From the NCBI GenBank assembly GCA_007859745.1, contig SMLU01000001.1, positions 496,001-560,000 on the forward strand: DNA of 64,000 bases, given 5' to 3'. Positions 53,106-56,666 of the stretch are shown one piece after another. Made by a program: the position numbers and the translations under genes. Numbering within the stretch: position 1 is the first letter of the stretch; every line of letters starts with the position of its first letter. The DNA is from Phycisphaerae bacterium RAS1 (GTDB lineage: Bacteria; Planctomycetota; Phycisphaerae; UBA1845; Fen-1342). A model generated the notes under the pieces. It was not told the DNA's origin and ran no database searches. It was given only the letters and a program-made list of their open reading frames with translations.

Positions 53106-53582
53106 TCAAGGCCCGGCCCCCGCCCCGCCGACCGCCCCCGGCCGGAAACTCACCGCGAATTGCACGTTCTTGAATCCGGCCCGCACGGTGGCGTCCATCG
53201 CCTTGATCACGAATTGCCAGCGCACCGTCGGATCGGCGCCGATCACCACCGGGTTCTCGGTATCGGCGCCCGACAGGCGCTTTTCCTGCAACGCCGCGTG
53301 CAGCCGTTCGAAGTCGCCGCCGGCGATCTGCTCGTCCATGAGCATGATGGTCACGGCGGCCGCGCCGGCGTCGAGCAGGGCGATCCGCACGCGCGGGTTG
53401 ATCTCGACCATCGCGCCACCGCCCGGCCCGCTGGCGGGGTCGAGCTCGGTCTTGAGCAAACCCTCGCGCACCAGCTCAAACGAGGCGCCCAGCAGGAAGA
53501 ACACCAGCAGAACCATGATGACGTCGACCATCGGGGCCAGGTTCGGCACGTTGTCGCCGGTGGGCGTCAGGTGGCGTCTCAT
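53106..53582 (-). CDS. ExbD/TolR-family protein (second copy)
   Basis: 158 residues. One N-terminal helix, NLAPMVDVIMVLLVFFLLGA, contains Asp20, equivalent to the proton-carrying Asp25 of ExbD. A periplasmic domain follows (about 45-150). With ExbB-type channels, such proteins convert proton motive force into motion. Its start overlaps the end of the upstream exbD paralogue (ATGA). It is the last gene of the ExbB-ExbD-ExbD cluster. A Gly/Ala/Pro-rich tail (PGAVGGAGAGP) ends it. It is convergent with the LD-carboxypeptidase gene, 24 nt away. Confidence 0.92.
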   Translation of the reverse strand: MRRHLTPTGDNVPNLAPMVDVIMVLLVFFLLGASFELVREGLLKTELDPASGPGGGAMVEINPRVRIALLDAGAAAVTIMLMDEQIAGGDFERLHAALQEKRLSGADTENPVVIGADPTVRWQFVIKAMDATVRAGFKNVQFAVSFRPGAVGGAGAGP

Positions 53583-54067
53583 GGCGTCGCCTCCGGCTCG
53601 CGTCCGGCGTTTGCGCTGAAGACGACATCGGAGATTTTGGACAGTCCACAGGCGCGCAGCACGACCTCGACGTGCTGGTACATCACGTGGCGATCAGCGC
53701 GGATCACGCAGCGGACGCGCTCGCCGTCGCGTGACGCCTGAGACGCGCGCCCGGCAAGATACGCATCGACGTCGGCGGGCTGGAGCAGCCGCTCCACGAT
53801 TCGCTTTCCATCCCAATCGGCCACCACGAACTCGGGCGTGTCGGGGTCGCCGGATTTCGACAGGCGGACGTTGATGACCACTTCCGGGCCGGCGTCGTGA
53901 CGATCATCGGTGGCAGCGGCTTCCGCGTAGGGCAGCAGAATGGGCTGGTGCTCGACGTCGACCAGGCGCGTGGCGAGCAGGAAAAAGACGATGAGGCACA
54001 TCATCACGTCCACCATCGGGGCGAGATTGAGCGTCATCGCGAATGGCTTGGGCGGGCGGAATTTCAT
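53579..54067 (-). CDS. ExbD/TolR-family protein (first copy)
   Basis: 162 residues. The helix MTLNLAPMVDVMMCLIVFFL has Asp20 at the same position as in its neighbour. The periplasmic part is acidic (AEAAATDDRHDAGPEVVINV, RVRCVIRADRHVMYQHVEVV). The two ExbD paralogues differ clearly in sequence and length, so they may form a heteromeric stator ring. It is 29 nt downstream of the ExbB gene and overlaps the second exbD by 4 nt. Ion coupling through Asp20 is inferred from family knowledge. Confidence 0.92.
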   Translation of the reverse strand: MKFRPPKPFAMTLNLAPMVDVMMCLIVFFLLATRLVDVEHQPILLPYAEAAATDDRHDAGPEVVINVRLSKSGDPDTPEFVVADWDGKRIVERLLQPADVDAYLAGRASQASRDGERVRCVIRADRHVMYQHVEVVLRACGLSKISDVVFSANAGREPEATP

Positions 54068-54096
54068 GGTATCGACGCGTCACTCGCGCGGCAGTA

Positions 54097-54945
54097 CTAC
54101 GTTGAAGTGCCTGCCGCAGCCGGCGGCGCCGCCCCTGCCGGACGCGACGCCGGCGCCGGGCTGGGTCGCGGCGGCTCGGCGGAGGAGACCGTCGGCCGGC
54201 GAACCGGGTCGGCGACGCTCTGCACGGCGGTCGCCGCTGCGCCGGTTGCAGCCGGGCGGAAGTACTCGAGCAGATCGAGCGCGTCGACGGTGGCTTCGAC
54301 GGTGAGTGAGTCAATGCGATTGCGGCAGGCGCCGAAGAACCCGATGCCGACGATGGCGACCGCCAATCCTAGAAACGTGTTGACGAGCGCTTCGCTGATG
54401 CCCTCGGCGAGCTTCCCGCCGCTGGCGCCTCCGCCGGCGCCCAGATCGCCGAAGGCCTTGATCATGCCCAGCACGGTGCCCAGCAGGCCCAGCAGCGGGC
54501 CGAGGTTCCCGATGATGTTCAGGTACTCGGCCTTTCGGAAGAGGCGGCCGCTCAGCTCGCCGGATTTTTCGAGGGCGGCCTCGTGCATGGCGTCGAAGCC
54601 GTGGCGGGCGTGGGCCAGCGCGGCGCTCATGACGCGGGCGAAAAAGGTCTGGCTCTTTTGCAGCGTCTCGACGCACTCGCGGAAGCTGCGGCCCTCGATC
54701 TGCCGTTTGGCGCGCAGGACCTGTTCCGGCGGGGCGATCGTGATGCGCCGCACGGTGATGAAATGCTCCACCACCAGCGCGCACACAACCAGCGAGCCGG
54801 CGATGATGAGATACGACGGCAACTCGATGCCGGCCAGGAAAATGTCCAGCATCGTCTGACGGTTTTGCGGCGCCTGGGCCAGCGCCGGCGCGGCGGCGGC
54901 GAGCCATAGGCTGATCGCCAGTAGCGCCCGTCCTGGGCTGATCAT
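54097..54945 (-). CDS. MotA/TolQ/ExbB-family proton channel with signal peptide
   Basis: 282 residues. An added N-terminal signal sequence (MISPGRALLAISLWLAAAAP, cleavage near ALAQ) precedes a first helix LPSYLIIAGSLVVCALVVEH. The large cytoplasmic loop and two C-terminal helices follow: IIGNLGPLLGLLGTVLGMIK and ALVNTFLGLAVAIVGIGFFG, the TolQ/ExbB signature pair. The Pro/Ala-rich tail is unusual in length. AAAGGATGA precedes the ATG at 54945. It is third on the minus strand after the VWA gene, and forms the stator with the two ExbD proteins. Confidence 0.92.
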   Translation of the reverse strand: MISPGRALLAISLWLAAAAPALAQAPQNRQTMLDIFLAGIELPSYLIIAGSLVVCALVVEHFITVRRITIAPPEQVLRAKRQIEGRSFRECVETLQKSQTFFARVMSAALAHARHGFDAMHEAALEKSGELSGRLFRKAEYLNIIGNLGPLLGLLGTVLGMIKAFGDLGAGGGASGGKLAEGISEALVNTFLGLAVAIVGIGFFGACRNRIDSLTVEATVDALDLLEYFRPAATGAAATAVQSVADPVRRPTVSSAEPPRPSPAPASRPAGAAPPAAAGTST

Positions 54946-55016
54946 GCGTTCATCCTTTTCCACGCGACGACTCCGAAAAGAACGCTCTGGCTTTCCGACG
55001 GCCAAGCCGACCGGAC

Positions 55017-56108
55017 CTATCGCCGGCGGATGTCGCTGCCGGTCACGATCTTGATCCAACCGTTGTTCTGCTGCGCGATGCGCTCCAGGCGGCGGGCGCC
55101 GTCGGTCATGCGCGGCGGAAGGTCATCGGACTGTTGCAGGAGCAACTCGTCGAACACGTAGCAGAAAATTCTAGCGTTGGCCCGTGCGTTGGCGCGCTTG
55201 ACCTCGCCTACCACGGCTTCGTCGAAGTAGCCGTCGGAGAAGAACAGGATGGCCTCGGGGTTCATGCTGATCGCGCGGCGGAGCGCCGGGAGCGGCTCGG
55301 TCCCGCCCATCGGACTCTTGCGGTCGAGCCACTGGATGAAGTCGCGGCGCGCATCGTCCTCGGCGGGGACCAGCTTCGGCGCAAAGCTCTCGGTTTTGTA
55401 TTGATCCTGCTGGCCGGTGGCGAGACTGAAGAAGACGATCACGTTGAACGTTTGGGAGGCTCTCAGTCCGGCGATCGAGCGCTTGAGCTCGCGTTTCAGA
55501 TCGTCGACGGCGACGATGATCGAGCCGGAGAAATCGACGACATAGGCGATGCGATTGGCGGCGATGGTTTTTCCCCACATGCCTGCGGTGCCGACGCCGC
55601 GCCCGCCGCCGCCGACGCCGGAGCCGAAGCCGCCGGTGCCGCTCTCGCCGGCGCCGGCGCCGACGCCGTGAAGGGAGAGTCGGCCTTCGCCGATGCCGAA
55701 GCTGTCGCCTTCGGAGGCGCCTGCGCCGGACGAGCTTTCCATCTGAGTGAGATCGCGCAGGCTGAAGTCGCCGACGTCGCTCAGGTCGCGCAGGGCGTCG
55801 AGCGCATCCGGCGGCACGTCGTCCGGCTGCGGCAGCGCATCGGCGCCGCTCCACTGAAACGCGCCGGCCAGTGGATCGCCGGAGACGACTGTTGCGCCAT
55901 ATTCGCCCGCCGGCGTCGCTGACAGGACCTGCCAGGTTCTGACCGCGAGCAGGACCAGCAGCACCGAGTGCACGACGAGGCTGGCGGCGGCGGGCAGTCC
56001 GAGGTGAACCAGCCAACGGAAATAGGGATTGCGGCGCTCGCGGTCGGCGAACGTCTCGGCGGCGACAGCGCGCCCGGCGGCGCCTGGTTTGTCGATTGTA
56101 CCGGCCAA
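55017..56108 (-). CDS. TonB-like membrane helix fused to a VWA domain
   Basis: 363 residues. One N-terminal helix (about 38-58) contains Ser43, His47, Leu54 and Thr58. Their spacing (4, 11, 15) equals the Ser16-His20-Leu27-Ser31 set by which TonB couples to ExbB/ExbD. After a Gly/Ser-rich linker (about 120-180) comes a von Willebrand A domain with the MIDAS motif VVDFSGSI (Asp192, Ser194, Ser196) and a later SPMGGTE threonine loop. No TonB C-terminal fold is visible. The start is TTG at 56108 with AAAGGG upstream. It is first in the cluster before ExbB, ExbD and ExbD. I infer a proton-driven envelope machine with a metal-dependent binding module. Confidence 0.85.
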   Translation of the reverse strand: MAGTIDKPGAAGRAVAAETFADRERRNPYFRWLVHLGLPAAASLVVHSVLLVLLAVRTWQVLSATPAGEYGATVVSGDPLAGAFQWSGADALPQPDDVPPDALDALRDLSDVGDFSLRDLTQMESSSGAGASEGDSFGIGEGRLSLHGVGAGAGESGTGGFGSGVGGGGRGVGTAGMWGKTIAANRIAYVVDFSGSIIVAVDDLKRELKRSIAGLRASQTFNVIVFFSLATGQQDQYKTESFAPKLVPAEDDARRDFIQWLDRKSPMGGTEPLPALRRAISMNPEAILFFSDGYFDEAVVGEVKRANARANARIFCYVFDELLLQQSDDLPPRMTDGARRLERIAQQNNGWIKIVTGSDIRRR

Positions 56109-56267: not shown

Positions 56268-56666
56268 TCATAACATCTGCGGCGCGGCCGCGCCGCCCAA
56301 CCCCGGGTGCGCCGCGGACGCCATCTGCACATAACGCATCCGCATTTCGTAGAGCACCTGGTCCAGCAGTTGTCGCTCGGGCGGCGTCAGGTTGTTCTTG
56401 GTTTTCTCGTCCAGCACCTGAAGCATGTCGATGAAGTGCTTGGCGATTTCGAGATTCGGCGGGATGCGCTCGCCGCCCGGGCCGGCCAGCGCCCCCAGCC
56501 CGGCGAGGGCCTGCACCGCGATCAGGTTCAGCAACTCGGCGAAGCTCGCCGCCGGCGTCTGCTCGTGGCCTTGCCCCTGCTCGCCGGCCGAGAGTTGCTC
56601 CTTCTCACGCCGTGCCTGGGCTTTCCAGTCGTCGTCGACGATGATCTTTCGTTCCTGCTCGGCCAT
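56268..56666 (-). CDS. DUF1844-family protein
   Basis: 132 residues. Start MAEQERKIIVDDDWKAQARR with a Lys/Glu-rich helix. The conserved part is ASFAELLNLIAVQALAGLGA, IPPNLEIAKHFIDMLQVLDE and NLTPPERQLLDQVLYEMRMR, which is the DUF1844 pattern known from planctomycetes and acidobacteria. Function is unknown. AGAGGAG lies 6 nt before the ATG. It is upstream of the VWA-ExbB cluster on the same strand, 159 nt away, so cotranscription is possible. Confidence 0.88.
   Translation of the reverse strand: MAEQERKIIVDDDWKAQARREKEQLSAGEQGQGHEQTPAASFAELLNLIAVQALAGLGALAGPGGERIPPNLEIAKHFIDMLQVLDEKTKNNLTPPERQLLDQVLYEMRMRYVQMASAAHPGLGGAAAPQML

Follow-up and report, generated by a model that had tools for sequence, protein, structure and literature searches.

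An S-x3-H-helix VWA protein encoded with an ExbB-ExbD-ExbD motor in Phycisphaerae bacterium RAS1 is a probable TonB/TolA-like force transducer

A 64,000-nucleotide stretch of the genome of Phycisphaerae bacterium RAS1 (contig SMLU01000001.1, positions 496,001 to 560,000; hereafter the window) encodes a protein that has a VWA domain as its periplasmic head and is probably a TonB/TolA-like force transducer working on an ExbB/ExbD1/ExbD2 motor. Comparison of sequences revealed the parts of this system, an invariant motif in the membrane helix of the VWA protein, the predicted fold, the linkage of the genes, and their shared presence or absence across genomes. The system is a member of a family proposed in 2025, the vWA force transducers of PVC (Planctomycetes-Verrucomicrobia-Chlamydiae) bacteria (Williams-Jones et al. 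2025, Mol Biol Evol msaf138; PMC12204202, cited throughout from its available passages), and the reading as a proton-driven force transducer, well supported as a fit to the comparison, is not new; the new elements are the strict constraint on a Ser-His pair in the helix, the pair of ExbDs, and a secreted TPR protein, TPR2. The open reading frame (ORF) listing placed the four genes VWA-ExbB-ExbD1-ExbD2 in a same-strand run with short gaps from position 56108 to 53106 of the minus strand (Table 1), and the ORFs and their Pfam matches bore out a preliminary description of the window as to this order, with the VWA gene first.

Table 1. Coordinates, in the window, of the VWA-ExbB-ExbD1-ExbD2 region and of residues discussed in the text
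Feature	Positions	Strand	Basis
VWA protein (putative force transducer), 363 aa, TTG start	55017..56108	-	ORF; genome matches; predicted structure
N-terminal helix, residues 28-64	55917..56027	-	pLDDT; alignment
S43	55982-55980	-	invariant 40/40
H47	55970-55968	-	invariant 40/40
L54 and T58, within helix residues 28-64, present in window protein		-	not conserved in relatives
Gly-rich linker, residues 65-173, disordered	55590..55916	-	pLDDT; linker lengths of relatives
VWA domain, residues 174-361; MIDAS D192, S194, S196, T270, D292	55026..55589	-	model, PDB folds, alignment
ExbB/TolQ-like motor subunit	54097..54945	-	PF01618, E 3e-24
ExbD1/TolR-like subunit, membrane Asp in LAPMVDVMM	53579..54067	-	PF02472, E 1.9e-15
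ExbD2/TolR-like subunit, membrane Asp in LAPMVDVIM	53106..53582	-	PF02472, E 1.4e-17
DUF1844 gene directly upstream of VWA gene	56268..56666	-	PF08899, E 5e-21

TonB has the motif spacing S-x3-H-x6-L-x3-S (S16, H20, L27, and S31 in Escherichia coli). In the VWA protein of the window, S43, H47, L54, and T58 sit exactly at this spacing, in one predicted N-terminal helix, as the preliminary description had stated. Relatives were collected in two sets. At E <= 0.001, the VWA query had matches in 57 of 61 genomes, a few weak ones being other VWA proteins; at E < 1e-70, it matched 21 of the 27 genomes of the window's family. The panel comprised 41 loci, namely, the window and 40 mostly best-scoring loci from 56 matching relative genomes, and the named set comprised 79 loci from the best 80 of 408 matches; the two sets are not independent because many contigs are common to both. 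Forty VWA proteins, including 39 relatives with 21 to 53% identity to the window protein, were aligned (A1); none was excluded for absence of the motif, the position of the motif guided the choice of start codon, and L066, which runs off the end of its contig, was omitted. Twelve columns were invariant: ten in the VWA domain and two, S43 and H47, in the helix, so that no residue other than these two is invariant outside the VWA domain. Chance is excluded for the Ser and the His because both are invariant in 40 proteins of such low identity. Furthermore, S-x3-H was present in 113 of the 125 VWA-family ORFs of the fetched loci (41 from the panel and 84 from the named set, with several contigs in both); of the 514 other ORFs that have a strong hydrophobic stretch, 5 hold the motif in that stretch. 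Among the named loci that hold ExbB, the helix was found in 51 of 53 VWA ORFs (L118 included), the remaining two being an ORF truncated where its contig ends (L107) and, in L137, a third VWA ORF that is short. A second alignment (A2), of 53 of the 71 filter-passing locus proteins, included S-x3-H holders only, and its Ser/His invariance was therefore not used as evidence.

The predicted structure of the VWA protein, a single chain built from 54 sequences (mean predicted local distance difference test [pLDDT] score of 78 and predicted template modeling score of 0.58), consisted of the helix, the disordered linker, and the VWA fold delimited in Table 1. The mean pLDDT was 92 to 97 for helix residues 31 to 60 and 39 to 61 per 10-residue block for linker residues 71 to 170, and it was mostly >90 in the VWA domain. 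In relatives, 99 to 139 residues separate the end of the motif from the metal-ion-dependent adhesion site (MIDAS), and the linkers of family f1, to which the window protein belongs, contain 21 to 35 Gly and 2 to 17 Pro residues. MIDAS residues D192, S194, S196, and D292 were invariant in the 40 aligned proteins, and T270 was conserved in at least 90%; in three proteins, all of family f4 (L071, L072, and L073), this Thr is replaced by Ala, so that metal binding may differ there. The protein matched the Pfam VWA_3 model slightly under the cutoff (E 1.7e-5; 25.3 bits against a cutoff of 27). In a PDB fold search with the model, VWA structures dominated the top ranks, the VWA domains of inter-alpha-inhibitor, CMG2, and BatB (3ibs) being among the best matches; the first row was chain I of 9c4f, by its title a parvovirus capsid entry. 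The Pfam search gave no match of the VWA protein to a TonB or TolA model, and the RAS1 genome had no TonB_C (PF03544) match at E <= 0.001, so the candidate that the protein is a TonB in disguise was rejected. Pfam, model, and fold search together thus confirmed the earlier assignment of a MIDAS-bearing VWA domain without a TonB C-terminal fold.

The ExbB and the two ExbDs of the window scored well over the Pfam cutoffs of the MotA_ExbB and ExbD models. The ExbB ORF opens at a TTG at 55059, and we judge an alternative ATG at 54945 to be the likelier start. ExbB residues T195 and T228 (numbered from 55059), which we take to be the counterparts of the channel threonines of E. coli ExbB, were invariant in 33 aligned ExbBs (A3; the window and 32 relatives). 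The essential membrane Asp, noted earlier in both window ExbDs, was likewise kept in all 64 panel ExbD ORFs (61 by pattern and 3 by eye). A midpoint-rooted tree of 61 of these 64 ORFs divided into two separate clades, with 30 first-position and 31 second-position ExbDs; in the window, the two ORFs overlap by 4 bases. The ExbDs look, on this tree, like an old pair, each with its own Asp, which fits a mixed dimer as the axle of the motor, the alternative being two homodimers.

The same gene order, which the preliminary description had suggested seeking in other planctomycetes, was conserved in the panel: ExbB followed the VWA gene on the same strand in 33 of 41 loci, and ExbD1 and ExbD2 were each present in 32; of the remaining eight loci, several are interrupted by the end of the contig, and in some the genes are separated. 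All but three of the 79 named loci are titled as Planctomycetota lineages, the exceptions by title being L097 ("bacterium"), L108 ("Alphaproteobacteria"), and L134 ("Nitrospiraceae"), the last of which has neither the motif nor an ExbB in its locus. L108 (IP29b_bin.190) carries the planctomycete cluster, and its label looks wrong. In addition, a gene for the secreted TPR2 protein of ~900 aa lay downstream of ExbD2 on the same strand in 30 of the 41 panel loci (28 of these 30 ORFs form alignment A4; their Pfam TPR matches are weak). Among the named loci, 43 have two ExbDs followed by at least 1,500 bases, and 41 of these contain TPR2, L088 being one of the two roomy loci without it. A TPR gene of ~400 aa was a less common neighbor (14 of 41 panel loci, none of the window's family), located between the VWA and ExbB genes or, in stretches that do not include ExbB, after the VWA gene. 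Among the window ORFs, neither TPR gene adjoins the operon; the RAS1 genome encodes a TPR2 on another contig, with a signal-peptide-like start (by eye) and 46% identity to the TPR2 of a relative, and TPR2 of genome G011 is also on another contig.

Co-occurrence was scored in 89 genomes of the window's order, each at least 85% complete and many of them in many contigs. The VWA gene was present in 83, the cognate ExbB (at least 239 bits, the next matches scoring at most 170 bits) in 83, and TPR2 in 86; all three were present in 82, and none was present in three genomes of 93 to 97% completeness (G008, G015, and G049). Fisher p values, uncorrected for kinship, were 8.6e-7 for VWA and ExbB and 1.8e-4 for VWA and TPR2. 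Parts were retained even where they lie apart: besides RAS1 with its distant TPR2, G004 has ExbB-ExbD-ExbD-TPR2 ~158 kb from VWA, and G059 has VWA with TPR2 and ExbB on another contig. In most genomes, VWA, the cognate ExbB, and TPR2 are either all retained or all lost, even where the operon is split. This co-occurrence exceeds mere gene order, but absence in draft genomes is weak evidence.

From these comparisons we infer the docking, proton coupling, force, partner, and task of the VWA machine as follows. An ExbB pentamer and a pair of unlike ExbDs would constitute a proton-driven inner-membrane motor; through S43 and H47, the single helix of the VWA protein would dock against the outer face of ExbB; the flexible linker would span part of the periplasm, and the metal site of the head would hold a partner. 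Proton flow through ExbB/ExbD would move the motor and pull the head, whereupon the partner would be released or remodeled. The likeliest partner would be TPR2, which may extend to the outer membrane or cell wall and may be a missing part of the machine. The stronger proposal, that TPR2 is an obligate part, gripped by the VWA head and pulled by a motor with an axle of two different ExbDs, is doubtful; if true, it would add to Ton and Tol another trans-envelope system powered by protons, one near-universal in this planctomycete order. Of the motor-coupled machine with an adhesive domain that the preliminary description had envisaged, the docking helix found support in the invariant Ser/His, the gene order, and the shared absence, and the adhesive part found none.

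Several observations weigh against the force-transducer reading. The L54 column contained Leu in 20 and Met in 11 of the 40 proteins, and the T58 column contained Thr in 19 and Ser in 4 (counts made on unfiltered ORFs); next to the invariant Ser and His, this indicates strict constraint on the S-H half, but not on the L-S half, of the TonB/TolA motif. The S-H-L-T spacing noted earlier thus holds among relatives for its first two residues, as a hydrophobic position for the third, and not for the fourth (Thr or Ser in 23 of 40). S-x3-H was also found in 22 of 31 VWA ORFs of named loci without ExbB (L128 included), and nine of these motif-bearing loci have at least 4,000 bases of room downstream; in two of the nine, L090 and L115, ExbB lies on another contig of the same genome. 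Four of the 89 genomes were mixed: G020 had VWA and TPR2 without the cognate ExbB, G063 (96% complete) had ExbB and TPR2 without VWA, and G006 and G021 had TPR2 alone, the completeness of G020, G006, and G021 being 87 to 89%; absence from a genome means that, of a limited number of candidates scored, none exceeded the threshold. The predicted structure of the window VWA protein has no motor-box strand after the helix; a [YFW]-x-[AVG]-x-[VIL]-like stretch was seen by eye ~23 to 30 residues past the His in many f1 and f7 members. Contact between TPR2 and the VWA protein is a guess, and no experimental study of the vWA force-transducer family was found in the open-licence literature searched. The earlier statement that no characterized example was known may hold in the experimental sense; the family itself was described in 2025 (PMC12204202).

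A Tol-Pal-like envelope task, in which the VWA head would replace TolA and mobilize a periplasmic or cell wall partner at division, is one possible task of the force transducer and not an alternative mechanism, so that its odds overlap with those of the force-transducer reading; we regard it as possible, if rather unlikely. The presence of the VWA gene across most of the order and the parallel between TPR2 and the TPR protein CpoB suggest such a task, as does an LD-carboxypeptidase gene adjoining the window operon, but this gene is convergently oriented, and at E <= 1e-10 none of the 40 other panel loci contained a relative of it, for which reasons its product was rejected as a partner. No linked division gene was seen, and the three near-complete genomes without the system also argue against such a task.

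The docking data, that is, the invariant Ser/His and the occurrence of the motif with ExbB, would serve equally for a regulatory or assembly subunit that docks through the S-H helix without transmitting force and, by sensing a periplasmic ligand at its metal site, gates proton flow or stator activation. VWA domains often act in protein assembly, and the Gly-rich f1 linker suits tethering as much as pulling. TonB linkers are likewise flexible, however, and the S-H helices of known function, those of TonB and TolA, belong to force transducers; with the published class also proposed as force transducers (PMC12204202), a regulatory or assembly subunit of this kind seems unlikely. It is very improbable that the adhesive VWA domain of the preliminary description is pulled on or displayed by the motor at the cell surface, in the service of attachment or gliding. 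MIDAS-bearing VWA domains are often adhesive, the Foldseek list includes one bacterial adhesin VWA (9das; rank 49, E 7.5e-4), and a gliding role has been the subject of speculation (PMC12204202), but general VWA domains and BatB are better fold matches, ~110 flexible residues tie the head to the inner membrane, with no sign of surface exposure, no surface or secretion gene is among the named conserved neighbors, and the MIDAS Thr is Ala in 3 of 40 proteins; as the fold alone supports the adhesive role, it was rejected. That the VWA protein is a mere neighbor, unrelated to the motor, is hardly credible: gene order alone can persist among relatives, and the genes are apart in some genomes, some such VWA genes having no ExbB nearby, but the membrane helix has an invariant S-H pair, absence is shared with ExbB, and the parts are retained when unlinked.

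Jobs are known for few proton motors of the ExbB/ExbD kind. The VWA gene of this one was present in 83 of the 89 genomes covered of an order in Planctomycetota, a phylum with poorly understood envelope biology, and the invariant Ser/His, the paired ExbDs, and the co-occurring TPR2 are concrete targets for learning what the VWA head moves.

Nineteen of the 20 panel loci from the window's family have the DUF1844 gene upstream of VWA, a position that it occupies in none of the other 21 loci. The genes lgt (12 loci) and panC (11 loci), located upstream of DUF1844 in relatives of the window's family and absent there in the window, were taken as housekeeping neighbors; the named further conserved neighbors were lgt, panC, uvrB, and folate genes, and two six-locus groups were unnamed. 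Genes for S-x3-H VWA proteins with no ExbB in the fetched stretch were found in L143, L146, L152, L155, L159, and other loci, several of them in Pirellulales or Planctomycetaceae records; their motor may be elsewhere. The RAS1 genome also contains, on contig C5 outside the window (L083, 4983-13286), another ExbB-ExbD set. The S-x3-H transducer of this set, a different protein of 1,189 aa, has PD40 propeller repeats, additional membrane helices (seen by eye), a Pro-rich linker, and an end that resembles squalene-hopene cyclase below the Pfam cutoff; its gene adjoins that of a TPR protein. The S-x3-H helix of this transducer was seen in five of six loci read, namely, the RAS1 copy and four relatives, and its C-terminal 825 aa had matches in at least 77 of the 89 genomes at E <= 1e-15, many covering only the end domain in shorter proteins; a narrow literature search found nothing on it among the matches listed. 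A single match to a TonB-dependent receptor (G000:C3:409436-410467; L084) was present in this genome, which, as stated above, had no TonB_C match. Finally, a dispersed, partly palindromic repeat, CCGCCGCTTGGCGCGGCGGGTTCGG, occurs at 22 places in the window from 5890 to 56918, as 10 inverted pairs 72 to 93 bases apart and 2 single copies, and resembles repetitive extragenic palindromic elements; these 22 matches with at most 2 mismatches compare with none in 100 shuffles.

Among known systems, the BatA/BatB aerotolerance proteins have the VWA fold in common with the window protein (3ibs). BatA and BatB are membrane-anchored VWA proteins, and, to our knowledge, they have neither a link to an ExbB/ExbD motor nor an S-H helix. 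TonB with ExbB/ExbD and TolA with TolQ/TolR share with the window system a single N-terminal S-x3-H helix, a flexible linker, a periplasmic head, and an ExbB/ExbD-type motor; the window system differs in having a VWA head instead of a TonB or TolA C-terminal domain and in having two ExbD lineages. TPH-vWA proteins are, like the window protein, membrane-anchored vWA proteins encoded beside a TolQ-like gene, but they have TolQ and no TolR, for which they substitute, with an Asp in their own helix (PMC12204202); the window helix has no Asp at residues 35 to 60, and two ExbD genes are adjacent. The closest likeness is to the clusters of Williams-Jones et al., which contain a tolQ-like gene, two tolR-like genes, and often a TPR gene (PMC12204202). 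There is no TPR gene beside the window motor, which is not disqualifying because the paper says "often"; its available passages mention one TPR gene and do not tell TPR2 apart. The SHLS motif is reported there in "many" vWA force transducers, and in a published AlphaFold 3 model of such a complex the helix docks on the motor via the His (PMC12204202); among the window's relatives only the Ser and the His of the motif are conserved. The window protein itself has an SHLS-type transmembrane helix with all four residues, a disordered linker of ~100 residues, and a vWA domain without a TonB or TolA C-terminal domain, and it thus shares with the published transducers the S-H transmembrane helix, the disordered linker, and the C-terminal vWA domain, and with their clusters the tolQ-like gene and the two unlike tolR-like genes (PMC12204202).

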